From positions 268,766 through 303,481 of the forward strand of contig JAQURC010000001.1 of the NCBI GenBank assembly GCA_028715785.1: DNA of 34,716 bases. The letters are read 5' to 3'. This document shows positions 5,515 through 21,287 of this stretch, one piece after another (position 1 is the stretch's first letter; every line of letters starts with the position of its first letter). Under the pieces are notes generated by a model. That model saw only the letters and a program-made list of their open reading frames with translations, made no database searches and had not been told where the DNA came from. This stretch comes from Candidatus Omnitrophota bacterium. GTDB taxonomy: Bacteria; Omnitrophota; Gorgyraeia; Gygaellales; Profunditerraquicolaceae. A program made the position numbers and the translations under genes.

Positions 5515-5589
5515 CGGGGCGTGGCTCAGTTTGGCTAGAGCGCCTGCTTTGGGAGCAGGAGGTCACAGGTTCAAGTCCTGTCGCCCCGA
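5515..5589 (+). tRNA. tRNA-Pro (anticodon TGG)
   Basis: The cloverleaf is complete: a 7-bp acceptor CGGGGCG/CGCCCCG, D-arm GCTC/GAGC, anticodon stem CCTGC/GCAGG with loop TTTGGGA giving TGG, and T-arm ACAGG/CCTGT with TTCAAGT. The discriminator is A and the 3' CCA is not encoded. It lies 14 bases upstream of tRNA-Arg. Confidence 0.96.
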
Positions 5590-5603
5590 ATTTGAAAATT
5601 AAT

Positions 5604-5677
5604 GCGCCTGTAGCTCAGATGGATAGAGCATCTGCCTTCTAAGCAGAATGTAGCAGGTTCGATTCCTGCCAGGCGCA
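5604..5677 (+). tRNA. tRNA-Arg (anticodon TCT)
   Basis: Acceptor GCGCCTG pairs with CAGGCGC, the anticodon loop CTTCTAA gives TCT, and the T-arm is GCAGG/CCTGC around TTCGATT. The discriminator is A and no CCA is encoded. It is probably co-transcribed with tRNA-Pro and ends only 8 bases before the next ORF. Confidence 0.95.
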
Positions 5678-5685
5678 TAAAACTT

Positions 5686-6927: not shown

Positions 6928-7002
6928 GGTGGGTATAGCTCAATTGGTCAGAGCGTTAGACTGTGGCTCTAAAGGTTGCGGGTTCGATCCCCGTTACCCA
7001 CC
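6928..7002 (+). tRNA. tRNA-His (anticodon GTG)
   Basis: The acceptor GTGGGTA (6929-6935) pairs with TACCCAC (6995-7001), with the extra G-1 (6928) facing discriminator C73 (7002), the tRNA-His identity pair. The anticodon loop CTGTGGC gives GTG and the T-arm is GCGGG/CCCGT around TTCGATC. The 3' CCA is not fully encoded. It is the last core feature before the AT-rich island. Confidence 0.96.
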
Positions 7003-7058
7003 CATAACTTGTTGTGTAGCAATGAGTTACATCATTAAGAATTTGCGTTAGATTTCCC

Positions 7059-7095
7059 CACTTCCTGCGTCAATTGCATCAGGAGACAAGAAGTG
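7059..7095. repeat. Inverted repeat ending two bases before the island promoter
   Basis: CACTTC at 7059-7064 pairs with GAAGTG at 7090-7095, with an inner CCTG/CAGG pair (7064-7067, 7080-7083). It ends one base before the -35 box, so it could be an operator or the edge of the inserted DNA. The role is inferred from position only. Confidence 0.4.
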
Positions 7096-7096
7096 A

Positions 7097-7125
7097 TTGA
7101 CAAAAGCGCTTTTCTATGCTAAAAA
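7097..7125 (+). promoter_or_regulatory. Strong promoter of the restriction-modification operon
   Basis: A consensus -35 TTGACA (7097-7102), a 17-base spacer and -10 TAAAAA (7120-7125). Transcription would start near 7132, giving a leader of about 110 bases that contains a small hairpin (7146-7151 with 7068-type partner at 7168-7173) and then an intrinsic terminator before the first gene. Confidence 0.6.
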
Positions 7126-7187
7126 TAAATCAACAATCAAATAAAGTGGTATGTTTGAAGGGGGAACTGCCACGCAAAAATAATTAA

Positions 7188-7216
7188 AACCTTCGCTCAA
7201 AAGGCGAGGGTTTTTT
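7188..7216 (+). terminator. Intrinsic terminator in the leader of the R-M operon
   Basis: AACCTTCGC (7188-7196) pairs with GCGAGGGTT (7204-7212), nine pairs with one G-U, followed directly by a T-run. It lies after the promoter at 7097 and 27 bases before the first ATG, so it could act as an attenuator of methylase/nuclease synthesis. It could instead end readthrough from tRNA-His. Confidence 0.7.
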
Positions 7217-7243
7217 GTTTAGTAAACAGTAATTGGGTAAAAG

Positions 7244-9058
7244 ATGACAAAAATCAAAGATATTCCGCAAGTAGATCGGCCGCGAGAAAAATTTCTAAAG
7301 AAGGGAGCAGAAGCGCTTTCGAAAAGCGACCTTTTGGCAATATTACTTGGAAGCGGTATTAAAGGAAAGAATGTTAAACAGCTTTCAGAGCATATTGTGA
7401 AAAAATTTGGTAAAGGCTTTTTAGATATTAAGATTAAAGATCTATTGGAGATTCCAGGCATTGGGCAAGCTAAAGCATTGCAAATAGTTTCCGCAATTTC
7501 TTTAGTAAAGAGGTGTTATGAAGAACAAAAGGGAAATGAGGTCATAATAAGGAATTCAAAAGATGCCTTATCGCTTGTTTATGATTTAAGAGATAAGAAA
7601 AAGGAATATTTAATTTGTCTATACCTTAATGCAAGGAATGTTTTGATTAAAAAAGAGACTATAAGTATCGGCTTGCTCGATAAAAGCTTGGTACACCCAA
7701 GAGAAATATTCCATCCGGCAGTAGAAATTAACGCAGCAAGTATTATTTTAATCCATAATCATCCTTCCGGTATCGCAGCACCAAGCGAAAAAGACATTGA
7801 AGTTGTTAAGAAAATATCCCAAGCAGGAGAGATTATGGGAATTGCCGTTATAGATTTTATTATTATAGCAAATAACGAAAACTATAGTTTCTATGAAAGA
7901 CTAAAGATAAAAAATGATAACTGGGATTATGTAGCGGAAGAAGTGCAGGGAACTTTATTTGATTTACTGAAAATCGAGAGGCCAATCTATGAAATTGATG
8001 CAGAAAAGGTAAAAGAAACACATTTTAATATCCCACAGATAAAGAAAAATCACTTTCAACTGCAAAACCGCAGATATATAGGGAATAAGTACAAATTAAT
8101 AGATTGGATCTTTTCTATAGTTGATAGAGAATGTAAGGAGAGGAGTTCTTTCACCGATATTTTCGCAGGTACTGGAGTTGTTGCTGCTGTTGCCGCGAGA
8201 CATTTCGAGAAGATCGTATTGAACGATCTTTTACATTCTAATTACGCAATTTATCAGGCTTTCTTTAGTAATGGTTCTTGGGATATGAACAAGATCGATA
8301 ATATAATCAGGGATTATAACAATGTAGATAGCGATGATTTAGAAGATAATTATTTTTCGGAATGTTTTGGAGGCAAATATTTTAGTCATAAATCAGCAAA
8401 AATTATTGGATTTATTAGAGAGAACATAGAAGAAAATAGAGATATTTTGTCGATAAGAGAATATTATATTCTTATCGCATCTTTGTTGTATTCGATTGAT
8501 AAGATTGCTAATACAGTCGGCCATTATGATGCGTATTTTAAGAAAGAACATATTGAAGATGGTTTTTTCATGAAACCTATTGACCCGATTAGTGTCAGAA
8601 ACGTTGATATTTTCAGAGAAGATGCAAACCTATTAGCTAGGAAAGTTGAAACAGATATTGTTTACGTGGATCCCCCGTATAATTCAAGACAGTATAGTAG
8701 ATTTTATCATGTGTTAGAAACTCTGACTAAATGGGATAAACCAAAGCTATATGGCACAGCGTTGAAGCCTGCGTCTGAGAATATGAGCGATTATTGTCGA
8801 GTACAAGCTAAGAGCAAACTAGGCCAATTAGTAAGCGATATCAAGGCAAAGTACATAGTAGTATCATATAATAATACGTATGATTCTAAAAGTAACTCAT
8901 CCAAGAACAAGATAACTCTTCATGAAATAAAAGACATTTTAATGAGAAAAGGAAAAACTAAAGTTTTTGAAAAAGACTACCGACATTTTAATGCAGGTAA
9001 TACCGATTTTAAAAACCATAAAGAATATCTATTTGTTACAAATGCCAACCATGACTAA
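7244..9058 (+). CDS. RadC-D12 adenine methyltransferase fusion (R-M methylase 1)
   Basis: A 604-aa two-domain protein. Residues 1-220 are a full RadC/UPF0758 protein: the VDRPREKFL start, helix-hairpin-helix IPGIGQAKA near 70, and an intact JAMM metalloprotease-like motif with H171, H173, S181 and D184 in HNHPSG..PSEKD. After a linker, residues 276-604 form an N6-adenine DNA methyltransferase of the D12 class: YIGNKYKLIDWI, SAM-binding motif I FTDIFAGTG (302-310) and catalytic DPPY (475-478) followed by NSRQYS. The reading frame is continuous, with no sign of a frameshift joining two genes. The second methylase overlaps its 3' end by 8 bp, and an AlwI-type nuclease follows. With an asymmetric site, one methylase per strand is expected, so this is probably the first of the pair. 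The job of the RadC part is unknown. Confidence 0.9.
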   Translation: MTKIKDIPQVDRPREKFLKKGAEALSKSDLLAILLGSGIKGKNVKQLSEHIVKKFGKGFLDIKIKDLLEIPGIGQAKALQIVSAISLVKRCYEEQKGNEVIIRNSKDALSLVYDLRDKKKEYLICLYLNARNVLIKKETISIGLLDKSLVHPREIFHPAVEINAASIILIHNHPSGIAAPSEKDIEVVKKISQAGEIMGIAVIDFIIIANNENYSFYERLKIKNDNWDYVAEEVQGTLFDLLKIERPIYEIDAEKVKETHFNIPQIKKNHFQLQNRRYIGNKYKLIDWIFSIVDRECKERSSFTDIFAGTGVVAAVAARHFEKIVLNDLLHSNYAIYQAFFSNGSWDMNKIDNIIRDYNNVDSDDLEDNYFSECFGGKYFSHKSAKIIGFIRENIEENRDILSIREYYILIASLLYSIDKIANTVGHYDAYFKKEHIEDGFFMKPIDPISVRNVDIFREDANLLARKVETDIVYVDPPYNSRQYSRFYHVLETLTKWDKPKLYGTALKPASENMSDYCRVQAKSKLGQLVSDIKAKYIVVSYNNTYDSKSNSSKNKITLHEIKDILMRKGKTKVFEKDYRHFNAGNTDFKNHKEYLFVTNANHD

Positions 9059-9956
9059 TAATATTAGTAGATCTCCATTATTCTATGTTGGCGATAAATA
9101 TAAGCTGATGAAACAATTAATCGATCTGTTTCCGCAAGGAGTCGATAATTTTTATGAGCCTTTTGTTGGTGGTGGTACAGTATTTTTGAATATTAAGGCA
9201 AGGAGATATTTCGTAAATGACATTGATCAAAACCTTATTAGTATACACCAGTATCTAGTCAAGAATTCAAATAACCCTGGTTATTTCTTCCAGAATGTCG
9301 AGAAAATAATATATAAATATAATCTGTCTAGGTCATTCAAAGAAGACGTAATCCCTGATTCACTAAAACGAGAATGCAAGAAAACTTATTTTGCACGATT
9401 TAATAAGGGCGGATATGAAAAGTTAAGAAAACGCGTCAACAAAAGAAAAGATAACGATCCCTTAATTTTATATATTTTGCTTATATATGGTTTTAATAGA
9501 ATGTTAAGATTTAATGGAGGAGGAAAATTTAATTTGCCAGTAGGAAATGTCGACTTTAATAAAAATGTGGCTAGGGCTTTATATAATTATTTTGGTTTTG
9601 TGCAAAACAAGGAAATAATTTTGAGTTCAGTAGATTTTAGAAAATTCTTTTCTAAAATAAAACCTTCTAAGGATAATTTTGTTTATTTAGATCCGCCTTA
9701 TTTAATTGCTTCGAGTGAATATAACAAACTTTGGGATTATAAATCTGAATCAGATTTACTTCATTCAGTTGACTGCATCAACAAAATGGGCATTAAATTC
9801 GCTTTATCGAACGTAACTCATTATAATGGATACAAAAATGAACTATTGATTCAATGGATGGGTAAATACAAGGTGCACAAAATGGAAAGTAACTACATTA
9901 ATTACCATAATAATGGGAAAAAGAAAATTAAAGAAGTCCTTGTTACTAACTACTAA
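9051..9956 (+). CDS. D12-class N6-adenine DNA methyltransferase (R-M methylase 2)
   Basis: A Dam-like methylase of 301 aa. SPLFYVGDKYKLM at residues 8-20 is the usual D12 opening, motif I is FYEPFVGGGTVF (34-45), NDID follows at 56-59, and the catalytic motif IV is DPPY at 214-217. The frame is open further upstream, but the ATG at 9051 is preferred because it gives the family N-terminus and an 8-bp overlap with the fusion gene. It stops 4 bases before the nuclease start. Two adenine methylases plus one nuclease fit a non-palindromic recognition site such as GGATC or GAGTC, known for relatives of this nuclease family. Confidence 0.93.
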   Translation: MTNNISRSPLFYVGDKYKLMKQLIDLFPQGVDNFYEPFVGGGTVFLNIKARRYFVNDIDQNLISIHQYLVKNSNNPGYFFQNVEKIIYKYNLSRSFKEDVIPDSLKRECKKTYFARFNKGGYEKLRKRVNKRKDNDPLILYILLIYGFNRMLRFNGGGKFNLPVGNVDFNKNVARALYNYFGFVQNKEIILSSVDFRKFFSKIKPSKDNFVYLDPPYLIASSEYNKLWDYKSESDLLHSVDCINKMGIKFALSNVTHYNGYKNELLIQWMGKYKVHKMESNYINYHNNGKKKIKEVLVTNY

Positions 9957-9960
9957 ATCT

Positions 9961-11490
9961 ATGAGAAAACGACAATCAGAGTATAAGCCGTTATTATTTA
10001 CAACTACACTTAGAAATCCTGAGCGATTAAAATGGTTTTTGGGAGTATTAAAGAATTATAATGGGCAAATCTTGACTAACGATTTAGCTAAAAAGATCTC
10101 AGGGGAAATAATAAGGAATGGATTATATCGTCCAACAAATTTAAGTAATATTGTAAAGAATAAAATAAAAGCAAAAGAATCATTGACTGATAATGAAATA
10201 GCCAGAATTCTTAAAGACAATCCTCAAAATCATAAAGAAGCAGGTTTTGATAAAGGTTGGCCTTCTAGGTTTGATACTTGGTTTAAGATTGCAAAAGAAC
10301 TCGGATTTGTTTTTTATAGAAATGGCGAGAAAATAAGATTTTCAGAGGTTGGATTGATGCTGGTTGATAAGGAACATCCTGAATTTGAGCAGCAGGTATT
10401 TCTGAACGCTTTTGTAAAATACCAAAGCAATAGTCCTTTTAGGCGAGTGTTGAATGAAAACGTGCCATTGATACTCTTGCTAGAAGTAATTGCAAGGCTT
10501 GATAATGATCAAGCCTTCAATGGATCGGGAATCTCAAAATTAGAATTGCCCTTGATAATTTTCTGGAAAAATAATAATTCAGAAGAACTGTATAAACTTA
10601 TAAAGAAGATAAGAAAAAGATATGGTTATAATCCGAGTTCGGAAGTGATAGTCGATATCTGTCTTAACCAAATAATGGGAGGGCGTTTTAAGAAATTTAA
10701 TCATAAATCAATATTAGGTGACTATCCCGATGAATTTATAAGGAAGATGAGATTAACCGGATTGATTTCTATAAGGGGTGGTGGACGTTTTATAGATATT
10801 AACAGAAATGAACAAAAGAAAGTCAACTATGCAATTGCGAATTATTCTCAATACAAAAAATATGATACCGAAGAAGAATATTTCGAATATATGTCGAGAA
10901 TTGATAGGAATCTTATTTCATTCGAGAGCAAGTCTATAAGTTTAAAGGAGGCAGAAAGATATTTAGCGAAATGGAATGATATTTATTCTTGGGATAAGAT
11001 TAAAGAAGAGATGCTCAACTTAGTCAAAAGAAGATTAACTAAAGACGACATCTTAAAATATCTTTCTAACCCCATTAGATTAGAGTTTCTTGTTGCACTA
11101 GCCGTTAAGTCTAAATTTCCCAAGATTAGGGTTGTTCCTAACTACCCTTGTGATGACGAAGGATTGCCAACGGCAACTGCTGCAGGTATTGGTGATAAAG
11201 GAGATATTGAGTGCTATGAAGATATCAATGGAATTCTAATTGAAGTTACTATGTCCGAAGGTAGAACGCAAACAGTTATGGAAGTATGGCCTATAACTAG
11301 ACACTTAGAAGAATTTAAGAAAGCTAGGAATAATTCAATGTGTTATTTTATTGCACCTACAATATTTAAAGATTCTGAACGACAAATTGAATATGTAAAA
11401 TCTAAAGAAAAACTTTATATTTTACCAAAAACTATTGAAGAATTCTTGAGACATATAGATAAGAATGAGCTTTTGTATTGCAAAGAATAA
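9961..11490 (+). CDS. AlwI-family type IIS restriction endonuclease
   Basis: A 509-aa protein that begins KPLLFTTTLRNPERLKWFL, the hallmark N-terminus of AlwI-type nucleases (relatives: PleI, MlyI, nicking enzyme BstNBI). The catalytic part lies near residues 405-450: a GDKGDIECYE stretch, then GILIEVTM, then EVWPITRHLEEF, matching the family pattern of acidic residues around an IEVT strand and a following RHL. The ATG at 9961 is chosen over one 48 bases upstream, which would overlap the methylase. These enzymes bind an asymmetric site and cut a few bases away. The family includes enzymes that cut one strand only, so double-strand cleavage is not certain. Target sequence cannot be read from the gene; GGATC or GAGTC are the family precedents. 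Confidence 0.85.
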   Translation: MRKRQSEYKPLLFTTTLRNPERLKWFLGVLKNYNGQILTNDLAKKISGEIIRNGLYRPTNLSNIVKNKIKAKESLTDNEIARILKDNPQNHKEAGFDKGWPSRFDTWFKIAKELGFVFYRNGEKIRFSEVGLMLVDKEHPEFEQQVFLNAFVKYQSNSPFRRVLNENVPLILLLEVIARLDNDQAFNGSGISKLELPLIIFWKNNNSEELYKLIKKIRKRYGYNPSSEVIVDICLNQIMGGRFKKFNHKSILGDYPDEFIRKMRLTGLISIRGGGRFIDINRNEQKKVNYAIANYSQYKKYDTEEEYFEYMSRIDRNLISFESKSISLKEAERYLAKWNDIYSWDKIKEEMLNLVKRRLTKDDILKYLSNPIRLEFLVALAVKSKFPKIRVVPNYPCDDEGLPTATAAGIGDKGDIECYEDINGILIEVTMSEGRTQTVMEVWPITRHLEEFKKARNNSMCYFIAPTIFKDSERQIEYVKSKEKLYILPKTIEEFLRHIDKNELLYCKE

Positions 11491-11557: not shown

Positions 11558-12004
11558 ATGAGGCTTGCTAAGAAAATGAAGAAAATGATTTCTGAAAAGT
11601 TTGTTAGAAGGGCAGTGAGAGATTGGCTTTTTAGAAATGGCTGGGGAAGGAATTATGTTGAGAAAGAAACTCACGAACAAGGCGTTGATATAAAAGTTTG
11701 CCATAACAAATATTCTCGGTATTTCTTTATTGAAACTAAAGGAGAGTCTTCTGCAAAATCTGCAAAGTCTCAAAAGGAAACTGCATTTGTTTATTCCTTA
11801 GGCCAGATCATAACAAGAATGAAGGTAGGTAACGCGCGGTATTATTATGGTTTAGGTCTTCCTGCTTCGAGCGCTGTAATAGCGATTAGACGCATACCAT
11901 GGCAAGTTGCTAAGAAGTTACTTTTATACATTTTCTCAGTAGATAATAGTGGCAAAGTAAAGCGATGCGCTTGGCAAGATTTAAGGATAATTCAAGCAAG
12001 ATAA
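11558..12004 (+). CDS. Probable PD-(D/E)XK-fold nuclease-like protein
   Basis: A basic protein of up to 148 aa. The region EKETHEQGVDIKV...YFFIETKGES (residues ~29-58) has the spacing of a PD-(D/E)XK core: an upstream Glu, a GVD Asp at the start of one strand, then an IETKG strand carrying the Glu and Lys. The start is uncertain: ATGs exist at 11558, 11576 and 11588 and none has a strong ribosome site, but all keep the motif. It lies 67 bases after the restriction gene and 40 before the HEPN gene, so it is likely part of the island transcript. It could be a Vsr-like repair nuclease, a solitary restriction nuclease or an archaeal-resolvase-like protein; I cannot choose. Confidence 0.6.
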   Translation: MRLAKKMKKMISEKFVRRAVRDWLFRNGWGRNYVEKETHEQGVDIKVCHNKYSRYFFIETKGESSAKSAKSQKETAFVYSLGQIITRMKVGNARYYYGLGLPASSAVIAIRRIPWQVAKKLLLYIFSVDNSGKVKRCAWQDLRIIQAR

Positions 12005-12044
12005 TAGTAATTATAGTTTTTGAAGCTGAGACGACATTAGACTT

Positions 12045-12923
12045 ATGGTAAATAGAAGGATCTTAATTCCGATACTGAATAGGGCTTCTCTGAGGTGGAT
12101 GCCATTTTACCTTACAGATAATATATATTTTGATGAAATCGCGAAGGAAGATTATGCTGTGATTAATGGACAACTTAACGAATATACTGCAAAGATAAAT
12201 GCTAAGACCAAATGTATTTATATAGTTAACGAAAAATTTACTGATGTTGATTCGTATATTAAGAATATCTCAACTGCATTAAGATTTACGTTTAATATGT
12301 TTTCAAGTCAAGATTTTATTGTGTTGTTATTTGGTTTTTTGATTGAGGAGAATAGAAATGCTAGATTGAGTAAGACTGTAGATATACTAGATATTAATTA
12401 TGAATCTTTAAGAGAGCTTCATTATAAGCTAAAGCCGAATGTAAAAAGAAAAGAGGTTATAGCATATTTTAAAATTTTAGATTCAGCGATAGAAAAATCT
12501 GATAAAATTATTATCACGCTGGAAAGATTTAATTCTAGCCTTATGAGAAGTGATAATCACGATAAAATAATCGACATTACGACAAGTTTAGAGTCTCTTA
12601 TAGAAACTAGCACCGAAATCAATTTTAAATTTTCACTTTATAACACTTTAATTTCTTATGTTAAACTAGAAGAGAGAGAAGGTATAAGCGTTCTTTTAAA
12701 AGATCTTTACGACGCTCGGAGTAAAATTGTGCATGGTTCTAAGAATGCAAGACATAGAGAATTAAGAAATATTATGGAGCATTGGAGAACTTTTGTGGAA
12801 ATAGCTAAAGCCTGCATAAATTATTATATTTTTTTCTTAAATCAAAGTAACCCTGAATCGTGGAATAATCATTTACGGAAGTTAGCTTTAGGAATAGACA
12901 AGAAGATAATCGATAATGATTAA
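12045..12923 (+). CDS. HEPN (Apea-like) domain protein
   Basis: A 292-aa protein with a C-terminal HEPN-type helical domain. The signature ARSKIVHG carries the Rx4H motif (R225, H230) found at the active site of HEPN ribonucleases. A preceding pair of helices (residues ~172-222) and a following amphipathic stretch complete the four-helix pattern. The first ~150 residues are not recognisable. HEPN proteins in defence loci are often toxins that cut RNA once triggered, but many Apea-type members are uncharacterised. No MNT nucleotidyltransferase antitoxin is next to it. A degenerate copy of the island repeat core (TAGTTTTTGAA, 12014-12024) lies just before the start. Ends 12 bases before the DndB-like gene. 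Confidence 0.65.
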   Translation: MVNRRILIPILNRASLRWMPFYLTDNIYFDEIAKEDYAVINGQLNEYTAKINAKTKCIYIVNEKFTDVDSYIKNISTALRFTFNMFSSQDFIVLLFGFLIEENRNARLSKTVDILDINYESLRELHYKLKPNVKRKEVIAYFKILDSAIEKSDKIIITLERFNSSLMRSDNHDKIIDITTSLESLIETSTEINFKFSLYNTLISYVKLEEREGISVLLKDLYDARSKIVHGSKNARHRELRNIMEHWRTFVEIAKACINYYIFFLNQSNPESWNNHLRKLALGIDKKIIDND

Positions 12924-12935
12924 AGGAGAAAAACT

Positions 12936-14042
12936 ATGTTAATTAAGAGAGATAAAAACATTTTTGCTAAGATCCCGGTCATAAGAGGCGTAGTGCTAGG
13001 TATTAATGTTTTTAGGGGTTTTGCAGATTTAAGTATTATTTCTCAGATTTCACAGCCAGATATATATGATCAAACAATTAACCCCAAAGGTACTCAAAGG
13101 GATTTGAACCATTCACATGCTAAGAATGCTTATAATTATGTTGCGTCACGCAATTTCGCTTTTTGGCCAGAAGTCTTTCTTTGCGCTAGGAATAAGAATG
13201 TTGTTAAATACATTCCTTTTGCCTATTGCAAAGATACTGGCGTATTGTTGATATCGAAGAGAGCGATTAATAGAAAGAGCATTTCTATCTCGAGGGTTGA
13301 TGGAAATCATAGGTTGCATTATGCTTCTGGTGACTATCCAGGTTATCCACCTCTTCGCAAACCAGTTTCTTTTTGTTTGGCAATGGGGTTAACTCGGGAT
13401 CAAGAAATCACCCTCTTCAAGGATATTAATGATAACCAGAGAAGGATGGATACTAGTCACTTAGATAATATTAAGATTAGATTAACAGGGGATGAGCTTC
13501 TAAAAAAAGAAGATCCATATTTATATATTGCAAAGAAAATGAGCTCTGATAAAGATAGCCCATTTTGCGATATTGTTTATCAGGGGGGGCACAAGTCAAC
13601 CACTCATATCATCCCATTAAGAGCTTTAAAGACCGGCATCCAATATATGCTTTCAAGAACCACAAAACTTACAGCGTTGAAAGATCCCGATGTTCAGTTG
13701 AAAGTTATTAAAAATTATTTTCTTGCTTTAAGAAAATGGGAACCAAAAGCTTGGAAGCATTATAAGAAGTATTTAATGCTTCGTGGTGCGGGTTTTTGGG
13801 CTGCTTGTTTTTTGGGAACTGAAATCATCAATGATGTGCTTACGAAAGGTAAATTTGGTGTTGAAGATATGCTGTCAATATTGAAATCTGGAAGGAAATG
13901 GGATTGGTCAAATAATGGAGATTTTAAGGGTCTCTCTGGCCGTGTTGGGGCTAAAGAAATATCCGAGAAAATAGTCTCAAAACTAAAGAATGATTCGGGT
14001 GTTTCTGTTGAAAACTTAGTTAGGAAAATAATGAGTAAATAA
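12936..14042 (+). CDS. DndB-like DGQHR-domain protein
   Basis: A 368-aa protein behind a good ribosome site (AAAGGAG ending ~6 bases before ATG). RVDGNHRL at residues 120-127 is a DGQHR motif variant (Gln replaced by Asn), and LFKDINDNQRRMD (160-172) is the second signature shared with DndB. DndB proteins are DNA-binding regulators or partners in phosphorothioate DNA modification, and related DGQHR proteins occur in other DNA-modification clusters. Here there is no DndA/C/D/E, no Dpd-type transglycosylase and no Ssp protein nearby, so it is an orphan. It may serve the R-M or HEPN genes or be a regulator. Function inferred from family only. Confidence 0.7.
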   Translation: MLIKRDKNIFAKIPVIRGVVLGINVFRGFADLSIISQISQPDIYDQTINPKGTQRDLNHSHAKNAYNYVASRNFAFWPEVFLCARNKNVVKYIPFAYCKDTGVLLISKRAINRKSISISRVDGNHRLHYASGDYPGYPPLRKPVSFCLAMGLTRDQEITLFKDINDNQRRMDTSHLDNIKIRLTGDELLKKEDPYLYIAKKMSSDKDSPFCDIVYQGGHKSTTHIIPLRALKTGIQYMLSRTTKLTALKDPDVQLKVIKNYFLALRKWEPKAWKHYKKYLMLRGAGFWAACFLGTEIINDVLTKGKFGVEDMLSILKSGRKWDWSNNGDFKGLSGRVGAKEISEKIVSKLKNDSGVSVENLVRKIMSK

Positions 14043-14080: not shown

Positions 14081-14140
14081 CCTCCCCTCTAAAATTTTCA
14101 CCAGTTTTTTGAAAAGATAGCGCTAGGCGGGGGCGGGTTA
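14081..14140 (+). repeat. Island repeat, copy 1
   Basis: A ~60-bp unit in the gap between the DndB-like and OLD genes. It has a C-rich start (CCTCCCCTCTAAAA), the invariant 20-base core at 14103-14122, then GCTAGGCGGGGG. It matches copies at 15691-15750 and 16767-16824. The C-rich start and G-rich end can pair with a bulge, giving an imperfect hairpin. A short GACT..AGTC hairpin follows near 14146-14162. Confidence 0.9.
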
Positions 14141-14186
14141 ATGCGACTGTAAAAAAAGTCGGAAAATATAATTTTACGAGAGAACA

Positions 14187-15701
14187 ATGGTTAAAGCTTT
14201 AAAATTGAAAGGACATAAAGGAATAAAAGAGGTAAATATTGTTGATTTGGAGCATATAAATGTCTTGTCCGGGAAGAATAATTCTGGAAAATCGAGTATT
14301 CTTGAGGCTGTGCAGGATAAGGCTAAACGTTCCCTGGGAGTACTATTTAAGGAAGAGAATTTGGAGAATTTAGCTAAGATATATCGGCCTCTTATAAATA
14401 CATCAAGTCCATCGCCAGATCAAATACTGGATACATTTAGACAGTTTATAAAAACGCATAACGGCGAGTATCTTTATAAAGATTATGAAAAAGATTATGT
14501 TGACGAGTTCTCGAAAATATTCCAACAGAAATATCACCAGAATTACGGAAACAGTTATAGTTTTGATAGGTTCTTTAGGGTAGTTGTTTCTCAGGAAGAA
14601 GATAATTTTAAGCCTTGTCTTATTGATCCCAAAAGAAAGATAGGATCCGTAACTAAGATTGATACAGCCGTAAAACTTTCTACAAACGGGGATAATCTTC
14701 TAAATGATTTATTTTTTCTAAAGAATCAAGAACCATATTCTAAAGAGTACAAGAGTTACGTCAGTATATTTGATAGTTTTAAGCAAATAACAAATGGGGC
14801 CCAATTTAATATTTTACCCGACAAAGGAAATAACATTAAATTGCAGTTCAGAATTGATAAATGCGATGGTTGGGTTGATGCCGATAATTGTGGTTTAGGT
14901 TTACGGGAGGTGTTATTAATTGTTTCTTTTGTTTTTAGCCCTGAATTCGATTTTATCCAAATTGAAGAACCAGAAAACCACTTGCATCCAGAATATCAAA
15001 GGAAACTCTTGAGATTTATCGATTCAGCTATTGATAAGCAGTTTCTTATATCAACCCATTCAAATATTTTCTTAGATACGAGTTATGTGGATAAAGTATT
15101 CCTTACTTATTTTAATGGCCAGGTTTGCATTGAGGAGAAAACAAACAAAGCTAAAATTCTCAATGAATTAGGTTATTCCCCCTCGGATAATTTAATTTCA
15201 GATTTAATAATTTTAACCGAAGGACCAAAAGATTTCCCTGCCATAGAGGAATTCTTGAAGAAAATAGAAGGATTAGCGGGTTATGCGATTAAGTTTTGGC
15301 CTTTAGGCGGAGATATAATGTCTCAAGTCGATTTGTCAATCCTAAAAGAAAACAGTAATTTGATTGCACTTATCGATAACGACCCCGGAAGTAAAACACA
15401 TAGAGAAAAGTTTAAAGAACATTGCAAATCTTTAAATATCGAGTGCTTTCAGTTAAAACGCTATGCTTTGGAAAATTATTTCTCGATCAAAGCAATTAGA
15501 GATGTTTTTCAAGCGCAAATTTCAAAGGATATTACTGAAATAAAACCGGACAAAAAAATTGATTCGCAGATTGGCATAAATGTCAAAAATAATTCAAGGA
15601 AGATAGTTGGGCAAATGGGTATTGATGAGATAAAAAATACGGATTTATATGAATTTTTGGTCAGAGTAGAGACAATTTTGAAGAATTCTAGCTCCCCCTA
15701 A
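14187..15701 (+). CDS. OLD-family ATP-dependent nuclease (solo, class 1 type)
   Basis: A 504-aa ABC-type ATPase fused to a TOPRIM nuclease. Walker A is GKNNSGKSS (residues 29-37) after the usual LKLKGHKGIKEV opening. The Walker B region is IQIEEPENHLHPEYQ, followed by LISTHSNIFLD. The C-terminal TOPRIM part has LTEGPKDFPAIEEF and LIALIDNDPGSK, carrying the catalytic Glu and Asp residues. OLD proteins act in phage defence (P2 Old, class 1) or with a UvrD-like helicase (Gabija GajA, class 2). No helicase is adjacent, so it is solo or works with the small downstream genes. Its C-terminus, including the stop, runs into repeat copy 2, and copy 1 lies upstream, so the gene sits between two repeats like a cassette. 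Confidence 0.88.
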   Translation: MVKALKLKGHKGIKEVNIVDLEHINVLSGKNNSGKSSILEAVQDKAKRSLGVLFKEENLENLAKIYRPLINTSSPSPDQILDTFRQFIKTHNGEYLYKDYEKDYVDEFSKIFQQKYHQNYGNSYSFDRFFRVVVSQEEDNFKPCLIDPKRKIGSVTKIDTAVKLSTNGDNLLNDLFFLKNQEPYSKEYKSYVSIFDSFKQITNGAQFNILPDKGNNIKLQFRIDKCDGWVDADNCGLGLREVLLIVSFVFSPEFDFIQIEEPENHLHPEYQRKLLRFIDSAIDKQFLISTHSNIFLDTSYVDKVFLTYFNGQVCIEEKTNKAKILNELGYSPSDNLISDLIILTEGPKDFPAIEEFLKKIEGLAGYAIKFWPLGGDIMSQVDLSILKENSNLIALIDNDPGSKTHREKFKEHCKSLNIECFQLKRYALENYFSIKAIRDVFQAQISKDITEIKPDKKIDSQIGINVKNNSRKIVGQMGIDEIKNTDLYEFLVRVETILKNSSSP

Positions 15702-15750
15702 AAATTTCGCTAGTTTTTTGAAAAGATAGCGTTAAGCGGTGAGCGGTTAA
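15691..15750 (+). repeat. Island repeat, copy 2
   Basis: The same unit as copies 1 and 3, with the invariant core at 15712-15731. Here CGCTA (15708-15712) and TAGCG (15727-15731) form a perfect stem around the T-rich/A-rich centre. The copy overlaps the last codons of the OLD gene and ends 6 bases before the next ATG. The right part reads GTTAAGC where copies 1 and 3 read GCTAGGC. Confidence 0.9.
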
Positions 15751-15756
15751 ATAAAT

Positions 15757-16155
15757 ATGAAAAGAAGTGATTTCAGCAATAAAGAATGGGATAATATTAA
15801 AAATGAAATAAAAATTATTTTAATAGAAATGGCTAAGAGAAGAGGTCTAATTACTTACTCAGATTTAACGAAGAGAATTAATGCTGTCAGGTTAAATACA
15901 GAAAATAAAGATGAAGTACAAATTATGGCGCAGTTATTGGGAGAGCTTTCGTGTGAAGAAAGTCGCGTTGGTCATGGGATGATTTCGACACTAGTAATTC
16001 ACAAGACTGGTGATCAGGAGCCCGGTTTAGGATTTTTTGATTACGCTAAAGAAATAGGCAAAGATTTCAATGATAAAACAAAATTTTGGGTTGAAGAATG
16101 CAAAAAGGTGCATAATTATTGGGCTGTTAAATCGAAGGTAGTAAAAAATAGATAG
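15757..16155 (+). CDS. Conserved-looking small protein of unknown function
   Basis: A 132-aa soluble protein with no motif I can name. It starts with an acidic helix (NKEWDNIKNEIKIILIEMAK), then RGLITYSDLTKRI, which looks like a helix-turn-helix or winged-helix half. The middle has LLGELSCEESRVGHGMISTLVIHK, then PGLGFFDYAKEIG, and it ends with a helix containing WVEECKKVHNYW. The ordered GHGM-S-LVIHK and PGLGFF blocks look like a real conserved family and not a random frame. It begins 6 bases after repeat copy 2 and is followed after 20 bases by the RusA-like gene, so the two probably form one unit. Function unknown. Confidence 0.65.
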   Translation: MKRSDFSNKEWDNIKNEIKIILIEMAKRRGLITYSDLTKRINAVRLNTENKDEVQIMAQLLGELSCEESRVGHGMISTLVIHKTGDQEPGLGFFDYAKEIGKDFNDKTKFWVEECKKVHNYWAVKSKVVKNR

Positions 16156-16175
16156 TCATTTCTAGTTTTTGAAAA

Positions 16176-16745
16176 ATGGAATTTACACTAATATATTCAG
16201 GTCCTTTGAAAGCCAATGGTACTTTACAGGACAAACAAAGTATTCGTCGGATATTTCACTCTCAACTTAAAAAACTTTGGACTTTGCCACCTTTTGATAT
16301 TTATGCTAGTCCGGAAGAAGGGTACCTAGAAGAAGAACCGCAAGCAGGAAAAATTTCTTTGGTCAAAAGAGTAGGAGAATTCAGTTTTGTGCCACTTGTA
16401 ACCCAAAAACCCCATCTCCTTGCAGAGATTAGATTAATTTTATTACGTCCTGAATCTCCAGGATCGATTGTTTCGCAAGGCGGAGACATTGACAATCGAT
16501 TGAAGACTTTATTTGATGCTTTACGTATGCCTGCTAATACAAATGAATTACCAGGTGGAGATGCGCCTAAAGATGGAGAAAGACCGTTTTTTTGTCTTTT
16601 AGAGGATGATAAGCTTATAACTAAAATATCCGTAGAAACAGATACTCTTTTAGAGCCAATACGGGATTCAGTCTTTGTTAAGCTTTTTTTAAACATTAAA
16701 ACTAAAGGAACTCAACTTACTTTCGGAAATATTGGATTGGCATAA
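16176..16745 (+). CDS. RusA-like endonuclease-fold protein
   Basis: A 189-aa protein. GGDIDNRLKTLFDALRMP (residues 102-119) matches the RusA resolvase core pattern DxDNxxKxxxDAL, with D104, D106, N107, K110 and D114. The second acidic patch LLEDDKLITKISVETD (141-156) resembles the RusA DDxxV segment. RusA proteins resolve Holliday junctions in phage and prophage DNA. This one is longer than RusA (~120 aa), with about 80 extra N-terminal residues, so it is a divergent relative whose activity is not assured. No ribosome site is seen; a degenerate repeat core (CTAGTTTTTGAAAA, 16162-16175) lies directly against the ATG. It is followed by repeat copy 3. Confidence 0.6.
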   Translation: MEFTLIYSGPLKANGTLQDKQSIRRIFHSQLKKLWTLPPFDIYASPEEGYLEEEPQAGKISLVKRVGEFSFVPLVTQKPHLLAEIRLILLRPESPGSIVSQGGDIDNRLKTLFDALRMPANTNELPGGDAPKDGERPFFCLLEDDKLITKISVETDTLLEPIRDSVFVKLFLNIKTKGTQLTFGNIGLA

Positions 16746-16766
16746 ACTAAAAAAGTCTTTCTATTT

Positions 16767-16824
16767 CCTCCCCCTAAAAATTTCGGCAGTTTTTTGAAAA
16801 GATAGCGCTAGGCGGGGCGCGGGG
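16767..16824 (+). repeat. Island repeat, copy 3
   Basis: The same unit as copies 1 and 2, with the invariant core at 16788-16807. It lies 21 bases after the RusA-like gene. Its G-rich right part merges with the left arm of a 12-bp perfect hairpin (16811-16842). TAGCGCTA at 16803-16810 is itself palindromic, as in copy 1. Confidence 0.9.
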
Positions 16825-16842
16825 TGGGGGCCGCGCCCCGCC
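16811..16842. repeat. Perfect 12-bp GC hairpin at the island's right side
   Basis: GGCGGGGCGCGG (16811-16822) pairs exactly with CCGCGCCCCGCC (16831-16842) around an 8-base loop. There is no T-run, so it is not a classical terminator. It fuses with repeat copy 3 and opens the palindrome-rich block. Confidence 0.85.
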
Positions 16843-17165
16843 CAAGCAGCAGTTTTGAAGCCTTGACCGCAAGAGGCGGGGCATCCCGCCTCACGCTAAA
16901 GTTTTTCTGTTGAAGGCGGGAAGCGTCCGAGCTTGTTCTTTCCTAAAAAAATTTTGTTTTTAATGAGTAATTCTGGCTGAAGCGAGGACGCACGCCGCGA
17001 CCCTGGATTTTTTTATTGTTGTAGAGCGGCGAGCCACGCCGCACACGCATTGCAAAAGCTCGAAGGCAGCCGGACAAGGCTGCCGCCAAGCGAGGCTTCT
17101 GCCTACAGAAGCCGAGCGGTAAATCGGGAGATGCGGGAGCGCCGACAGGCGCGGTGCATTTAAGC
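16843..17165. other. Palindrome-rich GC-rich noncoding block
   Basis: No convincing gene lies between 16746 and 17399 apart from a candidate leader peptide. This stretch holds a string of perfect short hairpins: GAGGCGGG/CCCGCCTC (16873-16892), GCGGCG/CGCCGC (17026-17042), GGCAGCC/GGCTGCC (17065-17084), GGCTTCTG/CAGAAGCC (17094-17113) and GCGCC/GGCGC (17139-17152), with 4-6-base loops. Two AT-rich spacers separate the groups. A 102-codon minus-strand frame here is low-complexity and I treat it as spurious. It could be a structured RNA, an extragenic palindrome cluster, or a recombination or island-end region. Confidence 0.7.
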
Positions 17166-17204
17166 CGTTTCATTAGAGACAAAAACGGATGGAAGGGTTT
17201 GTTA

Positions 17205-17399: not shown

Positions 17400-19166
17400 A
17401 TGGCCGGCGGACTAAATTTAGCCGTAAATACTTTAGAGGTCTTGAAAAAAAGATACCTTATAAAGGACGATAATCGGAAGGTTATAGAATCTCCGGACGC
17501 CCTTTTTAGAAGGGTTGCCAGATGTGTTGTTAGAGCAGAAAATGCGTATTCAAGAGGCCCAGACAGCAGCCGTATCGAAGAGCAATTTTACCTGATGATG
17601 CGCAACCTGGAATTTATGCCTAACTCGCCGACCCTGATGAACGCCGGCACTTCGATGGGCCAGCTTTCCGCTTGTTTTGTCATTCCCATCGAGGATTCTA
17701 TTGAGGGCATATTCAAAGCCGTAAAAGATATGGCCAGGATCCATCAAACCGGCGGCGGCACAGGTTTTAATTTTTCCACCTTAAGGCCTAAAGGGGATAT
17801 CGTCGATTCCACCAAAGGCGAAGCCTCCGGCCCGGTGTCTTTTATGAAAATATTCGATGAAGCCACAGGGGTGGTCCTGCAGGGAGGGAGAAGGCGCGGT
17901 GCTAATATGGGAATTTTAAAATGCGACCATCCGGACATCGAAGAATTTGTCGGCGCCAAGATAGACGGCGCAAGTTTCTCCAATTTTAATATTTCGGTAG
18001 CAGTTACCGACAAATTTATGCAGGCCGCAAAAAGCAATCAACCGTTTGATCTGATAAACCCGAGGACTAAAAAAATAGTAAAAAGAATAAGGGCCGGGGA
18101 GCTTTTTGACAAAATAGTCCATGCGGCCTGGAAGACCGGAGACCCGGGTTTGGTTTTTATCGACGAGGTAAACCGCAGGAATCCCACGCCGCTTATCGGA
18201 AAGATAGAGGCCACAAACCCTTGCGGAGAGTTGCCGCTTTTGCCTTATGAAAGCTGTAACCTGGCCTCGATAAACCTTGGCAGGATGGTAAATGCCGGCG
18301 GCCTGGATTGGGAGAAGCTAAAAAACAGGATACACCTGGGCGTGAGGTTTTTGGATGATGTGATCGATGTGAATAAATTCCCGCTGCCGCAAATCAAGAA
18401 GATAACTTTTGCCAATCGCAAGATAGGATTGGGAGTGATGGGATTGGCCGATATGTTTATAAAATTGGATATGAGTTATAATTCCAAGGCGGCAGTAGAA
18501 TTTTCTAAAAAGCTTATGAAATTTATACATAAAGAGTCGCTTGCTGCCTCTTCTAAGCTTGCGGCGCAGAGAGGGGCTTTTCCAAATTTTAATAAGTCCA
18601 TATATGCTAAGAAAAATTTAAGGCTGCGTAACGCAACGGTCAATACTATCGCTCCTACCGGCACCATCAGTATCATCGCCGGATGCTCCAGCGGCATAGA
18701 GCCGATATTTGCCATAAGTTTTGTCAGGAATATACTTTCAGGGGAAAAGCTTTTTGAAGTCAATGCCCTGTTTGAAGGCCTGGCGCGAAAAAGAGGGTTT
18801 TATAAAAAGGGGTTGATGGAAGAGATTGCGCAAAAAGGCTCTTTAAAGGATGTAAAAGGGATTCCGCAGGACCTGAAACGCATATTTTTGACCGCGTTTG
18901 ATATCAAGCCTCTGCAGCATCTGGAGATCCAGGCCGCTTTTCAAAAGTATTCGGATAATTCGGTTTCTAAGACGATTAATCTGCCGCCGGCTGCCACTGA
19001 AAAAAATATAAAAAACATTTATATCGCCGCGCATAAACTTAAATGTAAAGGCATAACCGTTTACAGGTATGGGAGCAAAGATAAGCAGGTGCTTTCTTTC
19101 GGCCCTTCTGTAAAGGTTGATTCGGAATATGCCGGAGGATGCATTTCTGGGACATGTTCATTCTAA
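17400..19166 (+). CDS. nrdJ: Class II (adenosylcobalamin) ribonucleotide reductase NrdJ
   Basis: Reduces ribonucleotides to deoxyribonucleotides with a radical made from adenosylcobalamin, working with or without oxygen. Landmarks: MPNSPTLMNAG (residues 73-83), GQLSACFV with C92, TGGGTGFNFS, the GGRRRGANMG loop, the active-site NPCGE with C275 and the following ESCNLASINL, and APTGTISIIAG. The C-terminus ends GGCISGTCSF, with the redox-shuttle pair C581/C586 that regenerates the active site through thioredoxin. The 588-aa protein lacks an N-terminal ATP cone, so it is a short form. A 160-base leader with a terminator suggests attenuation control. I see no cobalamin riboswitch. Confidence 0.96.
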   Translation: MAGGLNLAVNTLEVLKKRYLIKDDNRKVIESPDALFRRVARCVVRAENAYSRGPDSSRIEEQFYLMMRNLEFMPNSPTLMNAGTSMGQLSACFVIPIEDSIEGIFKAVKDMARIHQTGGGTGFNFSTLRPKGDIVDSTKGEASGPVSFMKIFDEATGVVLQGGRRRGANMGILKCDHPDIEEFVGAKIDGASFSNFNISVAVTDKFMQAAKSNQPFDLINPRTKKIVKRIRAGELFDKIVHAAWKTGDPGLVFIDEVNRRNPTPLIGKIEATNPCGELPLLPYESCNLASINLGRMVNAGGLDWEKLKNRIHLGVRFLDDVIDVNKFPLPQIKKITFANRKIGLGVMGLADMFIKLDMSYNSKAAVEFSKKLMKFIHKESLAASSKLAAQRGAFPNFNKSIYAKKNLRLRNATVNTIAPTGTISIIAGCSSGIEPIFAISFVRNILSGEKLFEVNALFEGLARKRGFYKKGLMEEIAQKGSLKDVKGIPQDLKRIFLTAFDIKPLQHLEIQAAFQKYSDNSVSKTINLPPAATEKNIKNIYIAAHKLKCKGITVYRYGSKDKQVLSFGPSVKVDSEYAGGCISGTCSF

Positions 19167-19817: not shown

Positions 19818-20867
19818 ATGTCCGAGAGCATTGTAAAAAAACTTTCATTTCTGGACAGGTTCTTAACGCTGTGGATATTTTTGGCTATGGCATTGGGGGT
19901 GTTGCTGGGTTATTTTTATCCGCCGATAGTCGGCTTTTGGAATAAATTTCAGGCAGGCTCCACTAATATACCGATTGCCATCGGCCTGATCCTGATGATG
20001 TATCCGCCGCTGGCTAAAGTCAGGTATGAAGAATTGGCCGATGTTTTACGGGATACAAAAGTACTCACTTTGTCTCTTATCCAAAACTGGATCATCGGCC
20101 CGGTTTTAATGTTTTTTCTGGCAATCGTATTCTTGAGGAATTATCCGGAATATATGGTGGGTTTGATCCTGATCGGCCTTGCCCGTTGCATCGCCATGGT
20201 GATTGTCTGGAACGAGTTGGCAGGCGGCGATACGGAATACTGCGCCGGACTGGTCGCGTTTAACTCATTTTTCCAGGTTTTATTTTATTCCGCCTACGCC
20301 TGGTTTTTTATCACCATTGCGCCGGTTTGGTTCGGGTTAAAAGGGATGGTTGCCGCTGTTTCCATGGGGCAGATCGCCCACAGCGTTTTCATTTATCTGG
20401 GGATTCCTTTTATCGCCGGCATGCTCACCCGGTTTGTCGTCATCAGGACAAAAGGTAAAGTTTGGCACCATGAGAAGTTTATTCCCAAAATCAGCCCCTT
20501 GACCCTGATCGCGCTTTTATTCACCATTGTCGTGATGTTTTCAATGAAGGGGGAGTATATCGTTAAAATCCCCCTGGATGTGTTCAGGATTGCCCTGCCG
20601 CTTTTAATTTATTTTGCGGTGATGTTTCTAGTCTCATTCTATATGGGCAAAAAGGCCAAAGCAAGCTATGCCAAGAGCGCCACACTTTCCTTTACCGCAG
20701 CCAGCAATAATTTTGAGTTGGCCATCGCGGTGGCTATCGTAACCTTTGGAATTAATTCCGGCCAGGCGTTTGCCGCGGTAATCGGGCCGCTGGTAGAGGT
20801 GCCGGTATTAATCGGCCTGGTGAATGTCGCGTTATATTTTAAAAGAAGATACTTTCAACATGGATAA
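19818..20867 (+). CDS. acr3: ACR3-family arsenite efflux transporter
   Basis: A 349-aa inner-membrane carrier with about ten hydrophobic segments that exports arsenite. The segment [21 protein letters not shown] holds the conserved Cys of the ACR3 family, and the late segment [17 protein letters not shown] is the other family signature. Length is normal (about 350-400 aa). It starts 3 bases after the membrane protein. An arsR-type regulator lies ~7.7 kb downstream past the Ehr-like operon, so the arsenic genes here are split. Antimonite may also be a substrate. Confidence 0.93.
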
Positions 20868-20885: not shown

Positions 20886-21287
20886 ATGAAAAAATATTAT
20901 CTGGCTGTGATTAGCGCGTTCTGTTTTAGCGTATTTGTTTGTGCATATTCTTTAGCGCTTGATGACGCAAAAACAAAATTACCTGAGTTATCCGGCAAAA
21001 TTGAAAATGGCGTAAGAGTGGTTAAAGTTAAGGCCTTCAGGTATGGCTATGATCCTGATCCGATTGCGGTAAAACTGGGGGAGAAAGTTCGTATTGTTGC
21101 CGTAACCAGTGATGTAACCCACGGCCTGGCTATATCCGAATTTAATATAAATTTGATGATTGAGCCCGGAGAGACGGAAACCGCGGAATTCCTGGCCGAT
21201 AAAGAAGGCGAATTTACTATATATTGCACTGTTTATTGCGGGTCCGGCCATGTAAACATGCGCGGAAAATTTATTGTCGAGAAATAA
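20886..21287 (+). CDS. Exported CuA-like cupredoxin
   Basis: A 133-aa protein with a signal peptide (KKYYLAVISA..., cut likely near ALA/D at residue ~25). The mature part is a single cupredoxin domain. DVTHGLAI supplies H79 and the loop CTVYCGSGHVNM supplies C114, C118, H122 and M125. This is the CxxxCxxxHxxM ligand set of CuA centres in cytochrome oxidase subunit II and nitrous oxide reductase. There are no transmembrane helices of subunit II and no oxidase subunit I nearby, so it is a stand-alone periplasmic electron carrier or copper chaperone. It follows the ACR3 gene by 18 bases. Confidence 0.85.
   Translation: MKKYYLAVISAFCFSVFVCAYSLALDDAKTKLPELSGKIENGVRVVKVKAFRYGYDPDPIAVKLGEKVRIVAVTSDVTHGLAISEFNINLMIEPGETETAEFLADKEGEFTIYCTVYCGSGHVNMRGKFIVEK

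Follow-up and report, generated by a model that had tools for sequence, protein, structure and literature searches.

A short repeat beside defence genes in an Omnitrophota genome as the likely inner end of a terminal inverted repeat of tRNA-associated serine-recombinase islands

Which process leaves copies of one short repeat among neighbouring defence genes, and does the repeat itself take part in moving them? We addressed this question for a 34,716-nucleotide stretch (the window) of a 1.46-Mb Omnitrophota metagenome-assembled genome (MAG), labelled G000 here; the other G-numbers denote relatives, and all genomes compared are MAGs. A first-pass annotation had described three copies of a ~58-bp repeat around defence genes and had read them as possible recombination sites resembling those of integrons, or else as an extragenic palindrome family. 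In our analysis, the repeat is likely the inner end of a ~0.5-kb terminal inverted repeat belonging to a family of integrative islands, and the window block is likely a degraded, probably accreted serine-recombinase defence island. As judged from sequence, what is established is the architecture of the islands, their shared core, the exact insertion point, the inverted near-identical repeats, and the defence cargo, together with the position of the window block at a tRNA-His hotspot with a leader and a repeat remnant.

The repeat in the window and its distribution

Repeat finding identified the three direct copies as the top direct-repeat family of the window (Table 1; the third copy of the motif spans 16765-16824), with a 55-nt unit, 78% and 89% identity to the reference, and spacings of 1609 and 1076. 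A search of the whole G000 genome returned these three only at the search threshold (E values of 2.6e-36, 3.4e-17, and 5.8e-11), which is far beyond chance, and the 20-base core AGTTTTTTGAAAAGATAGCG is perfect in 3 of 3 copies, as first reported. The proposed layout, with copies between genes, needs two corrections: copy 2 overlaps the final 10 bases of the OLD-like open reading frame (ORF), whose stop lies at 15701, and copy 3 opens a GC-rich noncoding element, conserved in relatives, that extends to about 17180. The bulged hairpin ascribed to all copies was not borne out: in DNA folding against shuffles, the z values were -0.6, -2.4, and +1.2 for copies 1, 2, and 3, respectively, and only copy 2 folded better. 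Likewise, the integron-like core site GTTRRRY occurs in copy 2 alone (GTTAAGC), while copies 1 and 3 and most relatives read GCTAGGC. Copy 1 is 93-94% identical to the copies in an inverted pair of G157. Within the GC-rich element, GCAGTTTTTTGAA and GGCGCGG are each present twice, and internal deletions occur at such short repeats. Rfam yielded tRNAs only in the window and no match for the element in relative loci.

Two side observations concern the repeat sequence. A lone terminal-repeat fragment of ~115 bp, 80% identical, lies at G000:C1:182584-182697 (L071), about 100 kb from the array. In addition, the 58-bp motif is interrupted midway by an inserted small palindrome (CCCTTCGACAAGCTCAGGG or similar) at L020 9077-9154, L055 10641-10718, and L064 629-711.

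The motif was found in 10 of 58 relatives, in 20 of 108 genomes of the family, and in 23 of 384 genomes phylum-wide, and a pattern scan of GTDB contigs gave matches confined to Omnitrophota. Copies within a genome mostly lie together, as in G157 (C8, 39.8-53.2 kb), G005 (C4, 5.5-10.5 kb), G266 (C114, 8-17 kb), and G011 (C9, 97-105 kb); in G347 and G030, they are spread over two or three contigs. Because of this clustering, the motif is unlike a dispersed repeat family, and its copies are not scattered at random among housekeeping genes. Moreover, the contents between copies differ between genomes, and relatives with the same flanks order the genes between them differently, as the earlier proposal of mobile modules had supposed. 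Identity is higher for copies within a genome (0.88) than between genomes (0.83), and many copies are most closely related to copies in other genomes. Near-identical contigs were seen across families (L058/L059 of G203 versus L019/L020 of G030, and L064 of G108 versus L016 of G009); the G108 and G203 contigs are probably misbinned, and their loci were set aside as possible misbins. Neither the motif nor the leader RNA described below had an exact match in IMG/VR, which therefore lends no support to a phage carrier.

Islands with terminal inverted repeats and a serine recombinase in relatives

In relatives, the motif forms the inner end of a GC-rich terminal inverted repeat of 0.43-0.51 kb; it faces the cargo, at the point where the two arms cease to match. 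The arms are 88-99.8% identical within an island and ~65-82% identical between islands, and they enclose restriction-modification (RM), OLD/Gabija, Fic, and Schlafen genes. G020, whose AsmA-like gene is the closest match among genus mates (85%), has a 465-bp repeat (99.8%) around a C-protein-like helix-turn-helix gene, two N6 methyltransferases, a BfiI-like restriction endonuclease, OLD, and SbcD/SbcC-like genes; the inner end of this repeat reads TTCCGCCCC(C)TA, and the next ~80 bases diverge. In G157, one island has a 513-bp repeat (98.6%) around a HaeIII-type restriction endonuclease, a C5 methyltransferase, and Vsr, and a second, at tRNA-Ala, has a 430-bp repeat (88%) with D12 and N6 methyltransferases. 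Further examples are G374 (at least 217 bp, 97.7%; UvrD plus OLD, Gabija-like, and a DpnII RM system), G030 (at least 133 bp, 98.5%; a Fic-family gene, two Schlafen-group helicases, and a MazG-like gene), and G093 (112 bp, 91%; OLD and a TaqI RM system). At two loci, inspection of the sequence identified an AbrB-like/RelE-like pair that splits a terminal repeat from inside (L052 4029-5141 and L057 8073-9261).

Intact islands follow one order: tRNA 3' end, large serine recombinase with flanking inverted repeats, terminal repeat, cargo, terminal repeat, and attR. The recombinase has about 480-520 amino acids, with resolvase, recombinase, and zinc-ribbon domains, and homologues are present in 32 of 107 family genomes. 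In G020 and G157, its gene adjoins the outer end of one arm, and the C-terminal end of the gene overlaps the tRNA gene. Inverted repeats of ~90-140 bp (94-100% identical) enclose the recombinase gene at 15 loci where a tRNA was annotated (tRNA-His, -Ala, -Ser, or -Asp); they start 3-7 nt before the end of the tRNA, and the GC-rich terminal repeat is detectable in many of those loci that have enough sequence. The far copy of the recombinase-flanking repeat abuts a segment that ends in the same core, namely, ACCCCA, CCACCA, CCGCCA, or CCCGCCA. The core follows the target (ACCCCA for tRNA-His, CCACCA for tRNA-Ala, and CCGCCA for tRNA-Ser), and the terminal repeat finishes with that core on its outer side. 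By eye, TTCGA could be read about 17-21 nt ahead of the core in most of these island ends, a position like the one it has in a tRNA T arm. An island end with the core also marks the right arm in G020, G374, and G093 and recurs in G034, G200, and G409; one G034 contig joins a terminal-repeat end to a recombinase-side half-site. Loci of this recombinase family include L079 225-1958, L090, L110, L112, L114, and L116-L126, where many contigs end.

The insertion point could be placed by comparison with empty sites. At the right end of the G157 tRNA-Ala island, the sequence ...TACGCACCACCA gives way to a terminator hairpin and the promoter of a 280-amino-acid gene. In G027, G362, and G028, a tRNA-Ala ending in CCACCA, the terminator, and the same next gene are contiguous, and the genes come in this order in G278 and G402 too, while the 8.8-kb island in G157 splits the tRNA-Ala locus exactly at CCACCA. 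The G157 island therefore lies exactly between the end of the tRNA and the terminator. No target duplication beyond the core was seen at the island insertions.

Cargo modules are shared between distant genomes. A RadC-methyltransferase protein is 95% identical in G032, a member of another genus, where it is also found at tRNA-His, and the DNA is 93.5% identical from 7146 of the window. A Fic gene (95% amino acid identity; G018 and G266) and a TaqI RM system (94%; G093 and G273) each occur with the repeat in differing surroundings, and both transfers cross families. An MNT-HEPN pair (about 90%; G013, G196, and G200) and the AbrB/RelE-like pair likewise recur with the repeat in different contexts. 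Just ahead of the MNT-HEPN pair, G200 has a full repeat end with the core plus a piece of the recombinase-side half-site, and G013 has the recombinase-side half-site ahead of the same pair. Such remnants are what stacked islands lacking a recombinase would leave, which is suggestive for copies 1 and 2 of the window and falls short of proof for them.

The window block as an island remnant

The window block begins right after tRNA-His, and the same tRNA-His has islands or repeat arrays behind it in G020, G157, G040, G273, G005, G013, and others. The tRNA-Pro/Arg/His cluster also precedes repeat-bearing blocks in G157, in G040 (another family), and in G273 (a third family). G005 has this layout as well: tRNA-His and the array lie on separate contigs whose overlap is exactly 127 nt long and begins with ACCCCA, which suggests an assembly fork at the core. 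On the right, window positions 16764-17183 align with the terminal repeats of G157 and G093, as well as with long copies in G196, G318, and G011, at about 75-82% identity. On the left, the leader RNA is 82-86% identical to sequences that precede methyltransferase genes in two intact islands, those of G020 (L079 2717-2842) and G157b (L118 2984-3113), and it also has matches in G266, G005, and G032. For locus comparison, the AsmA-like gene left of tRNA-His served as the flank. It replaced the ribonucleotide reductase gene right of the block (17400-19166), which was dropped as a conserved flank since it is not the reductase of the genus; it encodes a second ribonucleotide reductase, about 55-56% identical to the genus copy on contig C6. 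The right flank of G020 is shared with the window (94% and 84% identity to 19818-20867 and 20886-21287), and the cargo is wholly different.

Table 1. Features of the window around the repeat copies
Feature	Position	Strand	Evidence
tRNA-Pro, upstream of tRNA-His	5515-5589		
tRNA-Arg, upstream of tRNA-His	5603-5678		
tRNA-His (gtg), hotspot and target	6929-7003	+	ARAGORN
Promoter and conserved leader RNA with terminator, start of cargo operon	7091-7234	+	Similarity to intact islands
RadC domain plus D12 adenine methyltransferase, single ORF	7244-9058	+	Pfam, PADLOC
D12 class adenine methyltransferase	8967-9956	+	Pfam, PADLOC
AlwI-like type II restriction endonuclease	9913-11490	+	PF09491 E=3e-43; PADLOC REase_II
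Two cargo ORFs (11558-12004 and 12045-12923)	11558-12923	+	No convincing Pfam/PADLOC match
Possible DndB/DpdB-like protein	12936-14042	+	PF14072 E=5.8e-6 (under curated cut-off); PADLOC DpdB E=1.9e-4
Repeat copy 1, 55-bp remnant of the terminal repeat's inner end	14083-14137	+	
OLD/GajA-like AAA ATPase	14187-15701	+	PF13175/PF13304; PADLOC AriA, GajA, and others
Repeat copy 2, remnant, overlapping the end of the OLD-like ORF	15692-15746	+	
Small ORF, 132 aa	15757-16155	+	Weak sigma70 r1.1 match alone, E=0.0012
Possible RusA-like endonuclease	16176-16745	+	Weak: PF05866 E=0.12 over 17 residues
Repeat copy 3 plus ~420-bp terminal-repeat remnant, outer (attachment) end missing	16764-17183	+	Similarity to island repeats

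Among the cargo genes, RadC is fused to a D12 adenine methyltransferase in one ORF, and the RusA label of the first-pass annotation proved weak (Table 1). The leader RNA has features of its own. It reads GTGGTAT..GTTTGAAGGGGGAACTGCCAC, usually followed by a terminator, ACCTTCGC..GCGAAGGTTTTTT, with a promoter-like TTGACA ahead; its GAAGG could pair with CCTTC. It often lies upstream of methyltransferase and other defence genes, with 29 matches in 22 of 107 family genomes (including L155-L183), whereas a reversed-pattern control gave zero matches and Rfam gave none above threshold. The leader may be an attenuator of RM expression.

Several observations weigh against assigning the window block to these islands. 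No recombinase was detected in the window, and G000 as a whole gave no match at E<=1e-40. The window has no left inverted repeat; after 17183, no recognisable attachment end follows, the half-site match is absent from the window, and the right end is truncated. A single island insertion does not on its own yield short direct copies like copies 1 and 2, and the outermost copy is the longest in the window, the opposite of a simple decay in which the oldest is outermost. Elsewhere, the 58-bp inner motif is absent from the terminal repeats of G020, G152, and G157b, which share the rest, and some repeats adjoin ordinary genes (pyruvate kinase/DUF502, ferritin, and redoxin). Hence, the window block is at most a nonautonomous or decayed member of the family.

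With these points taken into account, the island interpretation would run as follows. A large serine recombinase would insert the island at the 3' end of a tRNA gene, with recombination presumably occurring at the terminal bases of the tRNA, matched by the core at the outer side of the terminal repeat. The window island would have lost its recombinase and left repeat, and copies 1 and 2 may be scars of islands or modules that were accreted and then decayed. More broadly, we tentatively propose an undescribed island family in which one serine recombinase may recognise tRNA 3' ends and two half-sites are inverted around its own gene; modules might be swapped at the tRNA, and successive insertions with recombinase loss could build arrays. 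In that arrangement, an excised circle would hold two attP sites. The first-pass proposal that the repeats are recombination sites for defence genes is thereby partly supported: the copies border mobile defence modules and relatives encode a recombinase, but in intact islands the motif is the inner end of the long terminal repeat, and the recombination core occupies the opposite, outer end beside the tRNA. That proposal was right in spirit, in that it invoked mobile defence modules and a site-specific recombinase, and wrong in kind, in that the repeats are not integron sites.

Alternative explanations, known systems, and significance

The arrangement of copies could also suggest integron-like cassette sites that move defence genes singly. 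Single genes do stand between direct copies (the OLD-like gene in the window and Fic in G018), the same gene is followed immediately by a copy in different genomes (Fic and MNT-HEPN), G005 has five short direct copies, and GTTAAGC in copy 2 fits the integron core. However, no integron integrase (TIGR02249) was found in G000 or in the other carriers among the 58 relatives; G000 gave sub-threshold Xer-like matches only, and the sole match over the cut-off was in G047, a noncarrier. There is no conserved R box and no conserved hairpin, the motif belongs to a longer inverted terminal repeat, of which it is an end, and, for the MNT-HEPN module in G013 and G200, DNA identity falls at the start of the motif and not within it. 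We regard integron-like movement as very unlikely. The G047 gene (C16:3307-4263) is by the curated cut-off a true integron integrase, in a relative of the same order that lacks the repeat. Less likely still is an extragenic palindrome (REP/BIME) or small MITE family lying in the islands by chance. The GC-rich element is rich in hairpins and follows gene ends, and REP-type Y1 transposases are encoded in 49 of 58 relatives, including G000; being nearly everywhere, these genes do not track the patchy repeat. Furthermore, the copies are clustered and occur in few genomes, with the three G000 copies at one locus, the hairpin signal is inconsistent, and the inverted pairs end in a tRNA core beside a serine recombinase. 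Least likely of all is a composite transposon in which two inverted short elements mobilise the genes between them; near-identical inverted copies do surround cargo, but the element has no transposase, its outer ends are the tRNA core, and no target duplication was seen besides that core.

A variant of the island interpretation is harder to set aside. Here, the serine recombinase would have brought in the first island only, and copies 1 and 2 would have arisen through RecA-mediated recombination or deletion between terminal repeats. Long near-identical repeats invite RecA exchange, and both the internal deletions at short repeats and the higher identity of copies within genomes agree with it. 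On the other hand, the many copies whose nearest relatives lie in other genomes point to separate arrivals, and stacked islands are suggested by the half-site remnants beside cargo in G200 and G013. We consider this variant a real possibility, if somewhat short of probable.

The closest known kinds are tRNA-associated islands and SCC/ECC-type cassettes. Like the former (Islander/TIGER), the Omnitrophota islands insert at the 3' end of a tRNA, have an attL/attR core, use hotspots that hold differing islands, and carry defence cargo; they differ in having a large serine recombinase, inverted terminal repeats of ~0.5 kb, and repeats of 90-140 bp flanking the recombinase. SCC elements have a large serine recombinase and one chromosomal site, stack, and vary in cargo. 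The Omnitrophota islands share the large serine recombinase, the insertion at one chromosomal site, the varied cargo, and probably the stacking, whereas their targets are tRNA-His, -Ala, -Ser, and -Asp instead of rlmH, their recombinase is single, and their terminal inverted repeats are long. With integron cassette arrays, they have in common direct repeats between modules, modules common to several genomes, and mostly one array per genome, but they have neither IntI nor attC features, and their repeat belongs to an inverted terminal repeat. Mobile RM units flanked by inverted repeats are known as "putative mobile forms." The islands similarly bound RM genes by inverted repeats, yet they add a dedicated recombinase, a tRNA target, and OLD, Gabija-like, Fic, Schlafen, and toxin-antitoxin cargo. 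Integration at tRNA genes is described as usually catalysed by tyrosine integrases (Islander; PMC4383910), SCC/ECC cassettes are driven by Ccr serine recombinases (PMC6222049), and the phrase "putative mobile forms" occurs in PMC3874152. Among the listed titles and abstracts of the open-licence literature, we found no description of this combination of features or of Omnitrophota islands.

The serine recombinases, with their predicted attachment sites at tRNA 3' ends, are directly testable and could serve as integration tools, and the repeat is diagnostic for locating islands of this kind. In this largely uncultured phylum, the islands are the likely vehicle that carries RM, OLD/Gabija, Fic, and further defence genes from one genus or family to another.

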